In this document: piece by piece, positions 17,850-40,932 of the stretch
Numbering within the stretch: position 1 is the stretch's first letter
Layout: every line of letters begins with the position of its first letter
Source: Methanosarcina sp. DH2
GTDB lineage: Archaea > Halobacteriota > Methanosarcinia > Methanosarcinales > Methanosarcinaceae
NCBI RefSeq assembly: GCF_020804225.1
Contig: NZ_WJBI01000025.1
Location: forward strand, 3,723 to 45,044
Reading direction: 5' to 3'
Length of the DNA stretch: 41,322 bases
Made by a program: the position numbers and the translations under genes
The notes under the pieces: model-generated
Databases searched by the model: none
What the model was told of the DNA's origin: nothing
The model's input: the letters and a program-made list of their open reading frames with translations, nothing else

Positions 17850-18059
17850 GTGAGAGATATTAAGCGAGTTTCTAAGCGAGTTTCTAAGCGAGTTTCTAAG
17901 CGAGTTTCTAAGCGAGTTTCTAAGCGAGTTTCTAAGCGAGTTTCTAAGTGGGTTTCTAAGCGGGCTTCTAAGTGGGTTTCTAAGCGGGCTTCTAAGTGGG
18001 TTTCTAAGCGGGTTTCTAAGCGGGTTTCTAAGCGAGTTTTTTTACGAATTCTGTTATAG
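17850..18059 (+). CDS. Candidate highly basic (RVSK)n repeat peptide (uncertain)
   Basis: A GTG preceded by AGAGG with 6-base spacing opens a 69-aa frame. It is almost wholly a tandem of RVSK, WVSK or RASK encoded by a 12-bp minisatellite, ending in a hydrophobic RVFLRILL. Because the repeat is 12 bp the frame stays open whatever the copy number. A TATA box, SD and start are all in the right order, which is more than chance repeat sequence usually offers. Still, any 12-bp repeat without stops would give such a frame. Its 3' end overlaps the end of the convergent HEAT gene. If made, it would be an extremely basic peptide suited to binding nucleic acid or membrane. Confidence 0.3.
   Translation: MRDIKRVSKRVSKRVSKRVSKRVSKRVSKRVSKWVSKRASKWVSKRASKWVSKRVSKRVSKRVFLRILL
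17861..18040. repeat. 12-bp minisatellite, 15 copies
   Basis: The unit is TAAGCGAGTTTC. The first seven copies are identical; the middle copies carry G-for-A and G-for-C changes (TAAGTGGGTTTC, TAAGCGGGCTTC) in alternating pairs, and the last copies revert. The last unit supplies the stop codon and final Leu-Ala of the minus-strand HEAT protein. Confidence 0.97.
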
Positions 18060-22883: not shown

Positions 22884-23001
22884 ATCTGCGTTTTGTAGAA
22901 TCTACAGCCTGTGAAAATTCGGTTTCACAGAAGTTTATCTAAGGTTACCAATGTTTTTGAGCCCTGAGAATATAAACCTTTTTCAAGACTTGTAATCACT
23001 C

Positions 23002-23113
23002 TTTTTACATCCAATCCTTTTTACATCCAATCCTTTTTACATCCAATCCTTTTTACATCTGATCCTTTTTATATCTGATCCTTTTTACATTCGATCCTTT
23101 TTACATCCGATCC
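23002..23113. repeat. 16-bp tandem repeat, 7 copies
   Basis: The unit is TTTTTACATCCAATCC. The first three copies are identical and the rest vary at CCAATCC/CTGATCC/TCGATCC. It lies between the Ig-like gene's 3' end and the TPR gene's promoter. Confidence 0.95.
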
Positions 23114-25250: not shown

Positions 25251-25457
25251 ATGAGTTATAAAAAAACACACGGCGTTCCAGCACTATTCTCTTTTTTCAT
25301 CCCCGGCCTGGGCCAGCTTGTAAAGGAGCAAGTGTCCAAGGCACTTGGTGTCTGGGCAGCCCTGCTAATCAGTGCATTCATGAGCGTAATCGGAATTGGG
25401 TTTTTAATGGGAATGGTTGTCTGGGTCGCGCAGATCTATGATGCTTATAATGCCTGA
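25251..25457 (+). CDS. Small 68-aa membrane protein (first of a pair)
   Basis: It starts at the ATG with GGGAGGG 7 bases upstream; the ORF open to 25212 is not needed. Short hydrophobic segments begin GVPALFSFFIPGLGQLVKEQ. Two helices follow (ALGVWAALLISAFMSVIGIG and FLMGMVVWVAQIYDAYNA). The pattern PxxG-GQ-K and the YDAYNA end resemble TM2-like small membrane proteins. It is closely similar to the 68-aa protein at 27843-28049, on the other side of the M3 peptidase gene. Confidence 0.75.
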   Translation: MSYKKTHGVPALFSFFIPGLGQLVKEQVSKALGVWAALLISAFMSVIGIGFLMGMVVWVAQIYDAYNA

Positions 25458-25519: not shown

Positions 25520-25534
25520 TTATCAAATTGGTAG
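25520..25534. promoter_or_regulatory. Isolated TATCAA-type half site
   Basis: TTATCAAATTGGTAG is a single unit resembling the palindromic end of the four arrays near the Fic gene. It lies between the small membrane protein and the M3 peptidase 3' end. Confidence 0.3.
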
Positions 25535-27842: not shown

Positions 27843-28049
27843 ATGGATTGCAGAAGAACACATGGAGTTCCAGCCCTATTTTCTTTTTTCATCCCAGGTC
27901 TGGGCCAGCTTGTAAAGGGACATATTTTCAAGGCACTGGGCATCTGGATAGCTCTTATGATCACCGGGACCATGCACATTATCGGGACTGGAATTTCAAT
28001 ATGGCTGATTATATGGATCTGGCAGATATATGATGCCTATAATGCCTGA
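27843..28049 (+). CDS. Small 68-aa membrane protein (second of a pair)
   Basis: It starts MDCRRTHGVPALFSFFIPGL and continues GQLVKGHIFKALGIWIALMI to the same YDAYNA C-terminus as the protein at 25251-25457; most substitutions lie in the second half. AAGGTA lies 6 bases before the ATG. Being duplicated on both sides of the M3 gene suggests a local duplication. Possible roles are small membrane adaptors or assembly factors; no evidence decides. Confidence 0.75.
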   Translation: MDCRRTHGVPALFSFFIPGLGQLVKGHIFKALGIWIALMITGTMHIIGTGISIWLIIWIWQIYDAYNA

Positions 28050-28240: not shown

Positions 28241-28275
28241 CTATCAATATCTATCAAAATTTATCAAATTGATAG
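28241..28275. promoter_or_regulatory. TATCAA array 1 (upstream of Fic)
   Basis: Three 10-bp units (CTATCAATAT, CTATCAAAAT, TTATCAAATT) are followed by GATAG, so the last unit forms a palindrome TATCAAATTGATA. The 10-bp spacing puts every TATCAA on the same face of the helix. Confidence 0.7.
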
Positions 28276-28303
28276 AAAAAAGAAGAAAATGAATAAAAAA
28301 CGT

Positions 28304-28315
28304 CATCAATTGATG
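28304..28315. promoter_or_regulatory. 12-bp palindrome between the arrays
   Basis: CATCAATTGATG is a perfect palindrome sharing the ATCAA core with the arrays. Confidence 0.4.
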
Positions 28316-28344
28316 CTGCTAATATCTAGAGATATAATTGAGAA

Positions 28345-28379
28345 CTATCAATATCTATCAAAAAGTATCAAATTGATAG
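28345..28379. promoter_or_regulatory. TATCAA array 2 (upstream of Fic)
   Basis: CTATCAATAT, CTATCAAAAA, GTATCAAATT and GATAG: the same 10-bp-phased layout as array 1, starting 104 bases downstream of it. Confidence 0.7.
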
Positions 28380-28399
28380 AAAGAAATATAGGAAATAAA

Positions 28400-28434
28400 C
28401 TATCAATATCTATCAAAATCAATCAAATTGATAG
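28400..28434. promoter_or_regulatory. TATCAA array 3 (21 bases before the Fic ATG)
   Basis: CTATCAATAT, CTATCAAAAT, CAATCAAATT and GATAG. It ends 21 bases before the Fic start codon, a position from which a bound protein would block transcription or translation initiation. Confidence 0.7.
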
Positions 28435-28455
28435 AAAGATATAGAAAATGATAAT

Positions 28456-29757
28456 ATGAAACTCCCAGAAGTCCCCGAATTTTCAAAAGAGGCCCTCGAA
28501 GAAGCTGGAAAGTTTCTGCATGATCGCCAAATTGCAGAGTTAGCTCACAGATACAATGAGAGGTATCTGCACTGGGAGGAGTTAAAACATAGGAAACTTC
28601 CCCTAGACCCTGTTATTGTATGGAATCTGATGAAAGTATCCAGAGAGTTAAAAGCAAAAACCCTGGAATTTGGGGACTGGGTTTTCAAATATGTTTTAAT
28701 AGATGAATTTCAGGAAAAACTCCATATTCTGGACAAATCAGCAGCAGGAAATCTTATAAGCAGCCTTGAAGCCCTGCAGGACAATAGAAGAAAGTACATT
28801 ATCAGTTCCCTGATGGAAGAAGCAATAGCTTCAAGCCAGATAGAAGGGGCAGCAACTACGAGGGAAGTTGCAAAAAGGATGCTGCAGGAAGACAGGAAGC
28901 CAAAAAATAAAGACGAAAAAATGATTGTAAACAATTACGCTACAGTGAAGCATATCGTGGCTTTAAAAAATGAAACCATTACTCCAAATAAAATTCTTGA
29001 AATCCACAGGATGATCACAACCGGAACACTTGAAAAATCCGAATACGAAGGCAATTTCAGAGAAAATAACGAGATTGCAGTTTATTCACACGACGGGACA
29101 TTACTTCATAAGCCTGTAGAATACCCTGAAATTCCGAAATTAATTGATAAATTATGTGATTTTGCCAGCACCAAGGATGAATATTTCATTCATCCCGTAA
29201 TAAAAGGAATAATCATTCATTTCCTGGTCGGATACATTCACCCATTCAACGATGGCAATGGCCGGACTGCAAGGGCTCTTTTCTACTGGTATCTACTCAA
29301 AAACGATTACTGGCTTTTCGAGTACATGGCAGTCTCAAGAGTAATAAATAACTCGAAAAAGCAGTATAGAAATGCCTACCTTTACACTGAATCCGACAGA
29401 ACCGCGAATGATTCCGGAGACCTCACATACTTTATCAAATACAACCTCGACTGCATCAAAAAAGCCCTTGATGACATCCTCGAATATCTGGAAAGAAAAC
29501 AAAAAGAACAGTTTCAAGCCCTGAAAATCATAACCGAATCCGGGGACCTGACTTTAAGACAGGCAGAAATCTTCAAGCAGTTTTTAAAAGAGCCTGAGAA
29601 ACCCGTCACAATTAAAGAAATAGTGACTACTTACAGCGTGGCGTACGCTACAGCCAGAAGTGATCTGTTCCAGCTTGAAAAATTGGGTTATCTTGAAAAA
29701 AGAAAGGCTGGAAAGGGGTTTATTTTTATATTCAGGAGAGTTGACAGAAATAATTAA
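28456..29757 (+). CDS. Fic/Fido-domain protein, class II auto-inhibited, with C-terminal winged helix
   Basis: This 433-aa protein, likely an AMP-transferase, has an N-terminal Fic_N-like helical domain. The inhibitory motif S-x-x-x-E-G is at Ser126-Gly131 (SSQIEG). The catalytic loop is HPFNDGNGRTAR (His262 to Arg273), with the catalytic His and all phosphate-binding residues present. A winged-helix domain occupies about 360-433 (VTIKEIVTTYSVAYATARSD, then LEKLGYLEKRKAGKGF). The inhibitory glutamate (Glu130) would hold it inactive until released. The winged helix could bind the TATCAA arrays upstream and downstream, giving autoregulation; this is an inference. It is convergent with a phosphatase gene. 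Confidence 0.92.
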   Translation: MKLPEVPEFSKEALEEAGKFLHDRQIAELAHRYNERYLHWEELKHRKLPLDPVIVWNLMKVSRELKAKTLEFGDWVFKYVLIDEFQEKLHILDKSAAGNLISSLEALQDNRRKYIISSLMEEAIASSQIEGAATTREVAKRMLQEDRKPKNKDEKMIVNNYATVKHIVALKNETITPNKILEIHRMITTGTLEKSEYEGNFRENNEIAVYSHDGTLLHKPVEYPEIPKLIDKLCDFASTKDEYFIHPVIKGIIIHFLVGYIHPFNDGNGRTARALFYWYLLKNDYWLFEYMAVSRVINNSKKQYRNAYLYTESDRTANDSGDLTYFIKYNLDCIKKALDDILEYLERKQKEQFQALKIITESGDLTLRQAEIFKQFLKEPEKPVTIKEIVTTYSVAYATARSDLFQLEKLGYLEKRKAGKGFIFIFRRVDRNN

Positions 29758-29816
29758 TTCTTCCTCTTTCGGATGCTCACTATAATCTCAACATCATAAT
29801 CTGTAAAAATATATTC

Positions 29817-29851
29817 CAATCAATTTCTATCAAAATCTATCAAATTGATGG
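29817..29851. promoter_or_regulatory. TATCAA array 4 (downstream of Fic)
   Basis: CAATCAATTT, CTATCAAAAT, CTATCAAATT and GATGG: the same design, 60 bases after the Fic stop and on the same orientation as the three upstream copies. Confidence 0.65.
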
Positions 29852-34954: not shown

Positions 34955-35075
34955 CAAACATGGTTCAGTATAGCGAATAATGTTTTTTGGGTCAGGAGTA
35001 TTTGTGACTTAAAACCATAAATTAGTCCTCTTGAGCGAAACGAAGTGGAGCGAAAAGGACCGCGTACTCCCGAGG

Positions 35076-35166
35076 CGCAATTCGGGCGAGACGCAATTCG
35101 GGCGAGACGCAATTCGGGCGAGGCACAATTCGGGCGAGACGCAATTCGGGCGAGGCGTAATTCGGG
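35076..35166. repeat. 16-bp tandem repeat, nearly six copies
   Basis: The unit is CGCAATTCGGGCGAGA. Copies 3 and 5 end in GG, copy 4 begins CACA and the last is truncated after ATTCGGG. It lies 30 bases downstream of the interrupted gene's end. Confidence 0.95.
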
Positions 35167-40487: not shown

Positions 40488-40932
40488 CTAAACAGGCAAA
40501 TCATTCTTTCTAATTGTAGAAATGTAAACTCTCATCCTGCAGAAAGTTTGCTCTCCTTGTATAGTTCTGAAAGTTCCCGATATTTTCTGCTGTAGTTTCA
40601 TCATCCTGATGTCTCTTTCTGCCTGGTTATTCTCAAATGGAACTTTCAAATCTGTCAAGAATCTCAGAATTTTTTCTTTGTGTTCTATAAACCTATCCAG
40701 TATATTCCTTGCTATCCAGTATATTCCTTGCTTTGGTTTTTGGATTCTTACCACGTTTTCCTTGCTTTTCAGGGTTTAGAGACTGTGCAAGAGTTGTCCC
40801 TGGATTACCATCTTGACCTCCACGTTTCTTGCCACTCTTTTTACGGTGACTCCTGGGATTAGGTTTCTCTTTGAAAAAATCAGTAGAAGGGAGGAGACTG
40901 CTATTACGACTGTTTTGATTTAAGCGAGATTC
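40488..40932 (-). mobile_element. Internally deleted IS66-family transposase relic
   Basis: Minus-strand reading gives the N-terminal IS66 pattern (NQNSRNSSLLPSTDFFKEKP, then RSHRKKSGKKRGGQDGNPGT) and then the C-terminal pattern (LRFLTDLKVPFENNQAERDI, then RMMKLQQKISGTFRTIQGEQ). The middle, including the first acidic catalytic residues, is missing, with a join near 40790. A 19-bp duplication at 40693-40730 shifts the frame between the halves; removing it restores continuity through KARNILDRFIEHKEK. The product is dead. The C-terminal 88-codon frame is all that remains open. Confidence 0.88.
40693..40730. repeat. 19-bp direct tandem duplication inside the IS66 relic
   Basis: CTATCCAGTATATTCCTTG is repeated exactly twice head-to-tail. 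Its length is not a multiple of three, so it is the frameshift in the relic. Confidence 0.95.

Follow-up and report, generated by a model that had tools for sequence, protein, structure and literature searches.

Phased operator arrays at a class II fic gene of Methanosarcina suggest probable self-repression by a winged-helix Fic protein

CccR of Yersinia pseudotuberculosis is a class II Fic protein with a C-terminal helix-turn-helix for which binding, the footprint and self-repression have all been measured; its binding sites are inverted repeats close to the promoter of its own gene, and it has to dimerize in order to bind (PMC9755527). A Fic core followed by a C-terminal winged helix is also found in SoFic of Shewanella (SO_4266; 3eqx) and in the anti-phage Sofic of E. 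coli (PMC12249575), and among near-complete archaeal genomes 31% are reported to have SoFic-type systems (PMC12988326). In a literature search that largely fell outside subscription journals, the CccR operator was the only one described for a Fic–winged-helix protein, and no SoFic operator was described in the literature searched on SoFic. Here we analyze a 41,322-nucleotide stretch of the archaeon Methanosarcina sp. DH2 (contig NZ_WJBI01000025.1, positions 3,723 to 45,044; hereafter the window), in which a fic gene lies among four arrays of phased TATCAA half-sites. The structure of these arrays, their exclusive linkage to fic, their conservation across archaea and bacteria and the concordance between half-site and recognition helix were computed, and on these grounds we propose that the class II Fic protein very probably uses its winged helix to bind the arrays and acts as a repressor of its own gene.

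The fic gene (positions 28456–29757; all features described here are on the plus strand) encodes a protein of 433 aa that matches the Pfam Fic family (4.2e-19). Its inhibitory-helix motif SSQIEG (28831–28848, residues 126–131) fits the class II pattern [ST]xxxE[GN] and lies N-terminal, in the same chain, to the catalytic motif HPFNDGNGRTAR (29239–29274, residues 262–273), which conforms to HPFx[DE]GN[GK]R. Both motifs are kept in 16 orthologs, and in the ortholog alignment A1 residues S126, S127, E130 and G131 as well as every residue of the catalytic motif except N265 are invariant. A first-pass annotation of the window, made from the letters alone, had assigned a winged helix to the C-terminus, and this is borne out, at 29545–29739 (about residues 364–428), by weak HTH_DeoR and SoFic-like_C matches and by an AF2 (AlphaFold2) model (mean predicted local distance difference test score 80, predicted template-modelling score 0.79), in which helices at residues 367–378, 386–393 and 397–409 are accompanied by wing strands at 413–418 and 421–426. 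The helix at 397–409 (29644–29682) is the recognition helix, with Y397 and A398 as candidate specificity positions. The best fold matches in a structure search with the model were Fic proteins, SoFic and 7xux among them. By its sequence the protein is SoFic-like and not SoFic, because it matches the PADLOC SoFic profile (159.5 bits, E 3.7e-47; no cut-off is stated for this profile) but, at 57.4 bits, falls far short of the cut-off of 550 set for the NCBIfam SoFic equivalog NF046030. The gene product is best read as a class II Fic protein of the SoFic/CccR-like kind and a predicted AMPylase.

The protein resembles CccR in its class II core, its N-terminal inhibitory motif, its C-terminal helix-turn-helix and the inverted repeats upstream of its own gene. 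CccR is shorter (380 aa), however, and its operator, AGATAATCAT-N26-ATGATAATCT, is a single site with a wide spacer that lacks the phased direct units of the Methanosarcina arrays. CccR is moreover an effector delivered by a type VI secretion system; nothing here points to such delivery, no search for the secretion system having been made. From SoFic, with which it shares the Fic core and winged helix, the Methanosarcina protein differs by an identity of about 20%, by a longer N-terminal part and by the equivalog score given above. Phd-Doc and FicT-FicA modules likewise place a Fic-fold toxin under autoregulation, but there inhibition and DNA binding reside on a separate antitoxin, whereas the Methanosarcina Fic protein is predicted to hold both in one chain. 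CccR is the experimental precedent; novelty lies in the phasing of the archaeal operators, in their conservation throughout the family and in a code that relates site to helix.

All four arrays have the same layout, three TATCAA-type units in 10-bp steps followed by a terminal TATCAAATTGATA(G), and form one repeat family (D1). Array 1 (28242–28275, core palindrome 28252–28274) consists of three perfect direct units and a perfect inverted unit. Array 2 (28346–28379, core palindrome 28356–28378), whose aligned block is kept in 7 Methanosarcina genomes, is followed by a TATA-like element, AAATATAGG, the putative promoter. Array 3 (28401–28434, core palindrome 28411–28433) has AATCAA as its third unit and ends 21 bp 5' of the fic ATG, and the downstream array (29818–29851), with AATCAA as its first unit and TTGATGG as its inverted arm, lies 60 bp past the fic stop codon. 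The three-unit pattern with up to three mismatches gave 6 overlapping matches in the window, compared with 0.10 expected from dinucleotide shuffles, and CTATCAA-N11-TTGATAG, the core extended to 25 bp, was matched 4 times at two or fewer mismatches, compared with 0.27 expected. The first-pass annotation had thus placed the four arrays, their exact 10-bp steps and the 21-base distance to the start codon correctly. Its description of three TATCAA units per array holds strictly for arrays 1 and 2; of the palindrome in which each array was said to end, the inverted arm is present, but it is altered in the downstream array, and the conserved core is not the 13-bp palindrome. Rather, the core is a 23-bp palindrome, TATCAA-N11-TTGATA, whose left half is unit 2 and whose right half is the inverted arm, with one further half-site one helical turn upstream and another within the palindrome; about 16 half-sites are present in total at this locus. 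The 13-bp palindrome and the row of three units were both rejected as the core, the third unit being poorly retained outside Methanosarcina (in 38 of 84 archaeal and in few bacterial operators) while the 23-bp palindrome is general.

Other genomes were searched for arrays by sequence pattern. The full three-unit pattern was found in 21 of the 60 genomes searched, all of one family, and the same pattern read backwards in none of the 60. Orthologs of fic were detected in 11 of 37 genomes of the genus or family (E<1e-150), and the arrays co-occur with fic orthologs, full or broken; paralogous Fic genes (∼27% identity, e.g. G000:C7) have no such arrays. Among 31 Methanosarcina genomes, in which about one exact 25-bp core would be expected by chance (an estimate from base composition over roughly 127 Mb) and the backwards control gave 0, we found 26 exact cores, 23 of which adjoin fic. 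The remaining three are in fic-type neighbourhoods that lack fic, apparently through loss of the gene: between dsp and htm27 neighbours in G029, 2 kb from dsp in G026, and 5 kb from marR-lon on G007:C11, the fic gene of G007 being on another contig with arrays of its own. The window's own genome has three exact cores, all at fic. The arrays therefore track fic; their occurrence genome-wide without linkage to fic was looked for in the 31 genomes and not found, and a wider regulon in Methanosarcina was rejected, core sites being absent elsewhere in these genomes. The arrays also stay with fic in other neighbourhoods (G007, G031 and loci L089 and L105), and in G007, G031 and the more distant loci L091–L100 fic has operators with none of the window's other tested genes nearby. 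Downstream arrays are present in G006, G008, G012, G014 and G031 (the G031 contig starts at the fic start codon, so that only this array is visible), weak in G004 and G007, and absent or weak in several relatives. This patchy presence lends no support to looping around the gene through the downstream copy, which the first-pass annotation had considered.

Solo arrays were found in fic-less genomes (G005, G022, G023, G029 and G030). The single array of G030 (L082, G030:C26, around 8001) has the left flank of upstream array 1, and from the next base its right flank is 94% identical to the sequence after the G004 downstream array, the product expected if recombination between arrays removed fic. 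Solo arrays explained in this manner do not call for another binding protein. In G012:C242 the last 20 codons of fic remain beside an array, and G011 and G019 carry broken fic genes. Tandem copies were seen as well: the fic-less locus of G029 (L396) contains three copies of an array-plus-spacer unit, and in G012:C158 (L088, up to 8034) one array has grown to about a dozen tandem 10-bp TATCAGAATC units.

Elsewhere in the order, in families other than that of Methanosarcina, orthologs that are 42–52% identical share this layout, their half-sites being TACCAA, TACTAA or ATTACTA. Upstream palindromes extend to a wider set of archaea, viral contigs and bacteria (Hymenobacter, Marinobacter, Dechloromonas, Planctomycetota, Frankiaceae and others), the half-site variants across archaeal families and bacteria being TATCAA, TACCAA, TACTAA and TGTAAA. 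With ortholog start codons picked by rule and palindromes scored by centre (a plain inverted-repeat length scan was blurred by nested palindromes), the best upstream score was 18 or higher in 56% of 118 ortholog upstream regions, compared with 1.4% of shuffles. Measured between its outer ends, the palindrome spans 23 bp in 82/84 archaeal operators; in bacteria the span is 23 or 24 bp in 14/15. At a distance of 10 or 11 bp on the upstream side, an additional half-site is present in 63 of the 84 archaeal and 7 of the 15 bacterial operators, whereas most other distances give about 0–2%. Only 10 of 63 operators have an inverted copy on the downstream side. The spacing thus corresponds to one helical turn and is one-sided, and the helical phasing proposed from the window alone proves to be real and general. 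Both palindrome arms change together across families, and bacterial relatives have upstream sites only. Viral contigs searched with A2 yielded distant relatives whose operators were not assignable. Unlike the one-sided archaeal form, the operator of Hymenobacter rubidus (L112) has four symmetric half-sites, two direct and two inverted.

The half-site varies with the first residues of the recognition helix. Helices starting with YA or YG go with TATCAA (19 rows, with two exceptions carrying TATTAA), those starting with YD with TACCAA (19/19; archaea and one Hymenobacter) and those starting with YQ or YE with TACTAA (56/56); when an aliphatic residue replaces Y, the second half-site base is G (TGTAAA, TGCTAA or TGTCAA; 5 rows). 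Among 421 alignment columns, residue 398 ranks first by information on the half-site, and helix residues 396, 402, 397 and 405 rank 12, 18, 21 and 22. On a tree of the Fic proteins built with the winged helix left out, at least five changes of half-site class are needed, and TACCAA has at least two origins, one archaeal and one in Hymenobacter (L112), both with D at position 398. A helix-to-half-site rule set before new data were added predicted the site correctly for 24 of the 26 cases that were left once duplicates had been removed, and both misses fall in one clade. We infer from this covariation that Y397 and A398 read the half-site. Several observations weigh against the assignment: residue 85 and other clade-marking columns score nearly as high; independent pairs are all concordant (2/2, 1/1 and 3/3), with changes too few for significance to be reached in pairwise tests; most of the 26 test cases, like many rows, are close relatives of earlier rows; about 15 rows had their half-sites assigned by eye; and in the clade of L307, L308, L384 and L385 a YATAR helix goes with TATTAA, TGTTAA or no site found, and with no TATCAA palindrome. 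Taken with the linkage to fic, the covariation nevertheless supports the first-pass suggestion that the Fic protein itself is the probable binder and regulator of its own gene.

In the mechanism that we propose, the winged helix would act as a transcription regulator built into the Fic protein, while the inhibitory helix of the same chain would hold the predicted AMPylase off. The geometry of the sites suggests that a dimer would occupy the 23-bp palindrome, and that further protomers would join on the same face of the DNA, one helical turn away. Arrays 1–3, when occupied, would cover the promoter, and fic would be repressed by its own product, which would hold down the level of an enzyme that may be toxic or serve in defence. 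Repression is favoured because of the operator position and the CccR precedent: array 3 sits at the transcription start expected for the TATA-like element that follows array 2, and among the Methanosarcinaceae with TACCAA sites a TATA-like box lies between two operators, the second of them over the expected start site.

As a further caution, sequence does not settle the sign of regulation. Since in several families the TATA box is immediately preceded by an operator (L091 and L275, for example, have one directly ahead of a TATA-like box), we considered that the Fic protein may activate its own gene or switch between activation and repression; the placement of array 3 and of the second TACCAA-group operator over the expected start, together with repression by CccR, makes this unlikely. 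The many half-sites per locus also raise the possibility that DNA keeps the Fic enzyme bound and so inactive or sequestered, loss of binding freeing an active AMPylase. The array would then be a DNA antitoxin and sensor for a SoFic-like defence protein, with release triggered by a virus disturbing the chromosome or by ATP changing the C-terminal domain. The C-terminal domain of Sofic is reported to move upon ATP binding (PMC12249575), a movement that would couple array binding to enzyme release. We regard this idea as distinctly improbable and retain self-repression as the preferred reading.

A different DNA-binding protein, a global or local regulator of which fic is merely a target, might be suspected from the solo arrays of fic-less genomes and from a MarR gene 1 kb downstream within the window. 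Such a regulator would have to do without a regulon, follow fic to loci that lack the window's neighbours (L089, L091–L100 and L105) and recognize a half-site that varies with the recognition helix of another protein, and the solo arrays fit recombination scars; we judge it very unlikely. Scarcely credible is the notion that the arrays chiefly serve recombination or mobility, as direct repeats bordering a cassette, and have no regulatory role: the flanks of the G030 array and the tandem growth in G012:C158 speak for it, but the joint change of the palindrome arms, the location of the site at the promoter and the bacterial relatives with upstream sites only all argue against it.

As for a separate antitoxin gene beside fic, as in a two-gene toxin–antitoxin module, only a 26-aa open reading frame on the same strand turned up downstream, and the upstream neighbour (27843–28049) resembles a membrane protein, as judged at this locus, with no systematic look in relatives. 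The loose site placed near 25520 by the first-pass annotation is present as a lone 13-bp palindrome, TATCAAATTGGTA(G), with one mismatch (25521–25534); it has no phased units upstream, was not counted as an operator and is possibly a relic. Predicted 68-aa membrane proteins encoded at 25251–25457 and 27843–28049 are paralogous, the gene of the former preceding the lone TATCAAATTGGTAG at 25521 and that of the latter preceding the fic arrays, an arrangement suggestive of a segmental duplication. Near-perfect tandem repeats occur at 17861–18039 (12 bp), 23001–23113 (16 bp) and 35071–35166 (16 bp); the last encodes a repeated peptide, and its open reading frame is probably not a gene. The open reading frame at 40488–40754 resembles the C-terminal portion of an IS66-type transposase.

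Many Fic proteins carry a DNA-binding tail, yet in the papers searched an operator is described only for CccR. A family-wide operator, together with the relation of helix to half-site, would make the operator predictable from protein sequence, and a site that changes in step with the DNA-binding tail may offer a route to DNA recognition and self-control in such enzymes. In Methanosarcina, where there is no sign of a wider regulon, a predicted defence enzyme would be tied to a self-control of its own.
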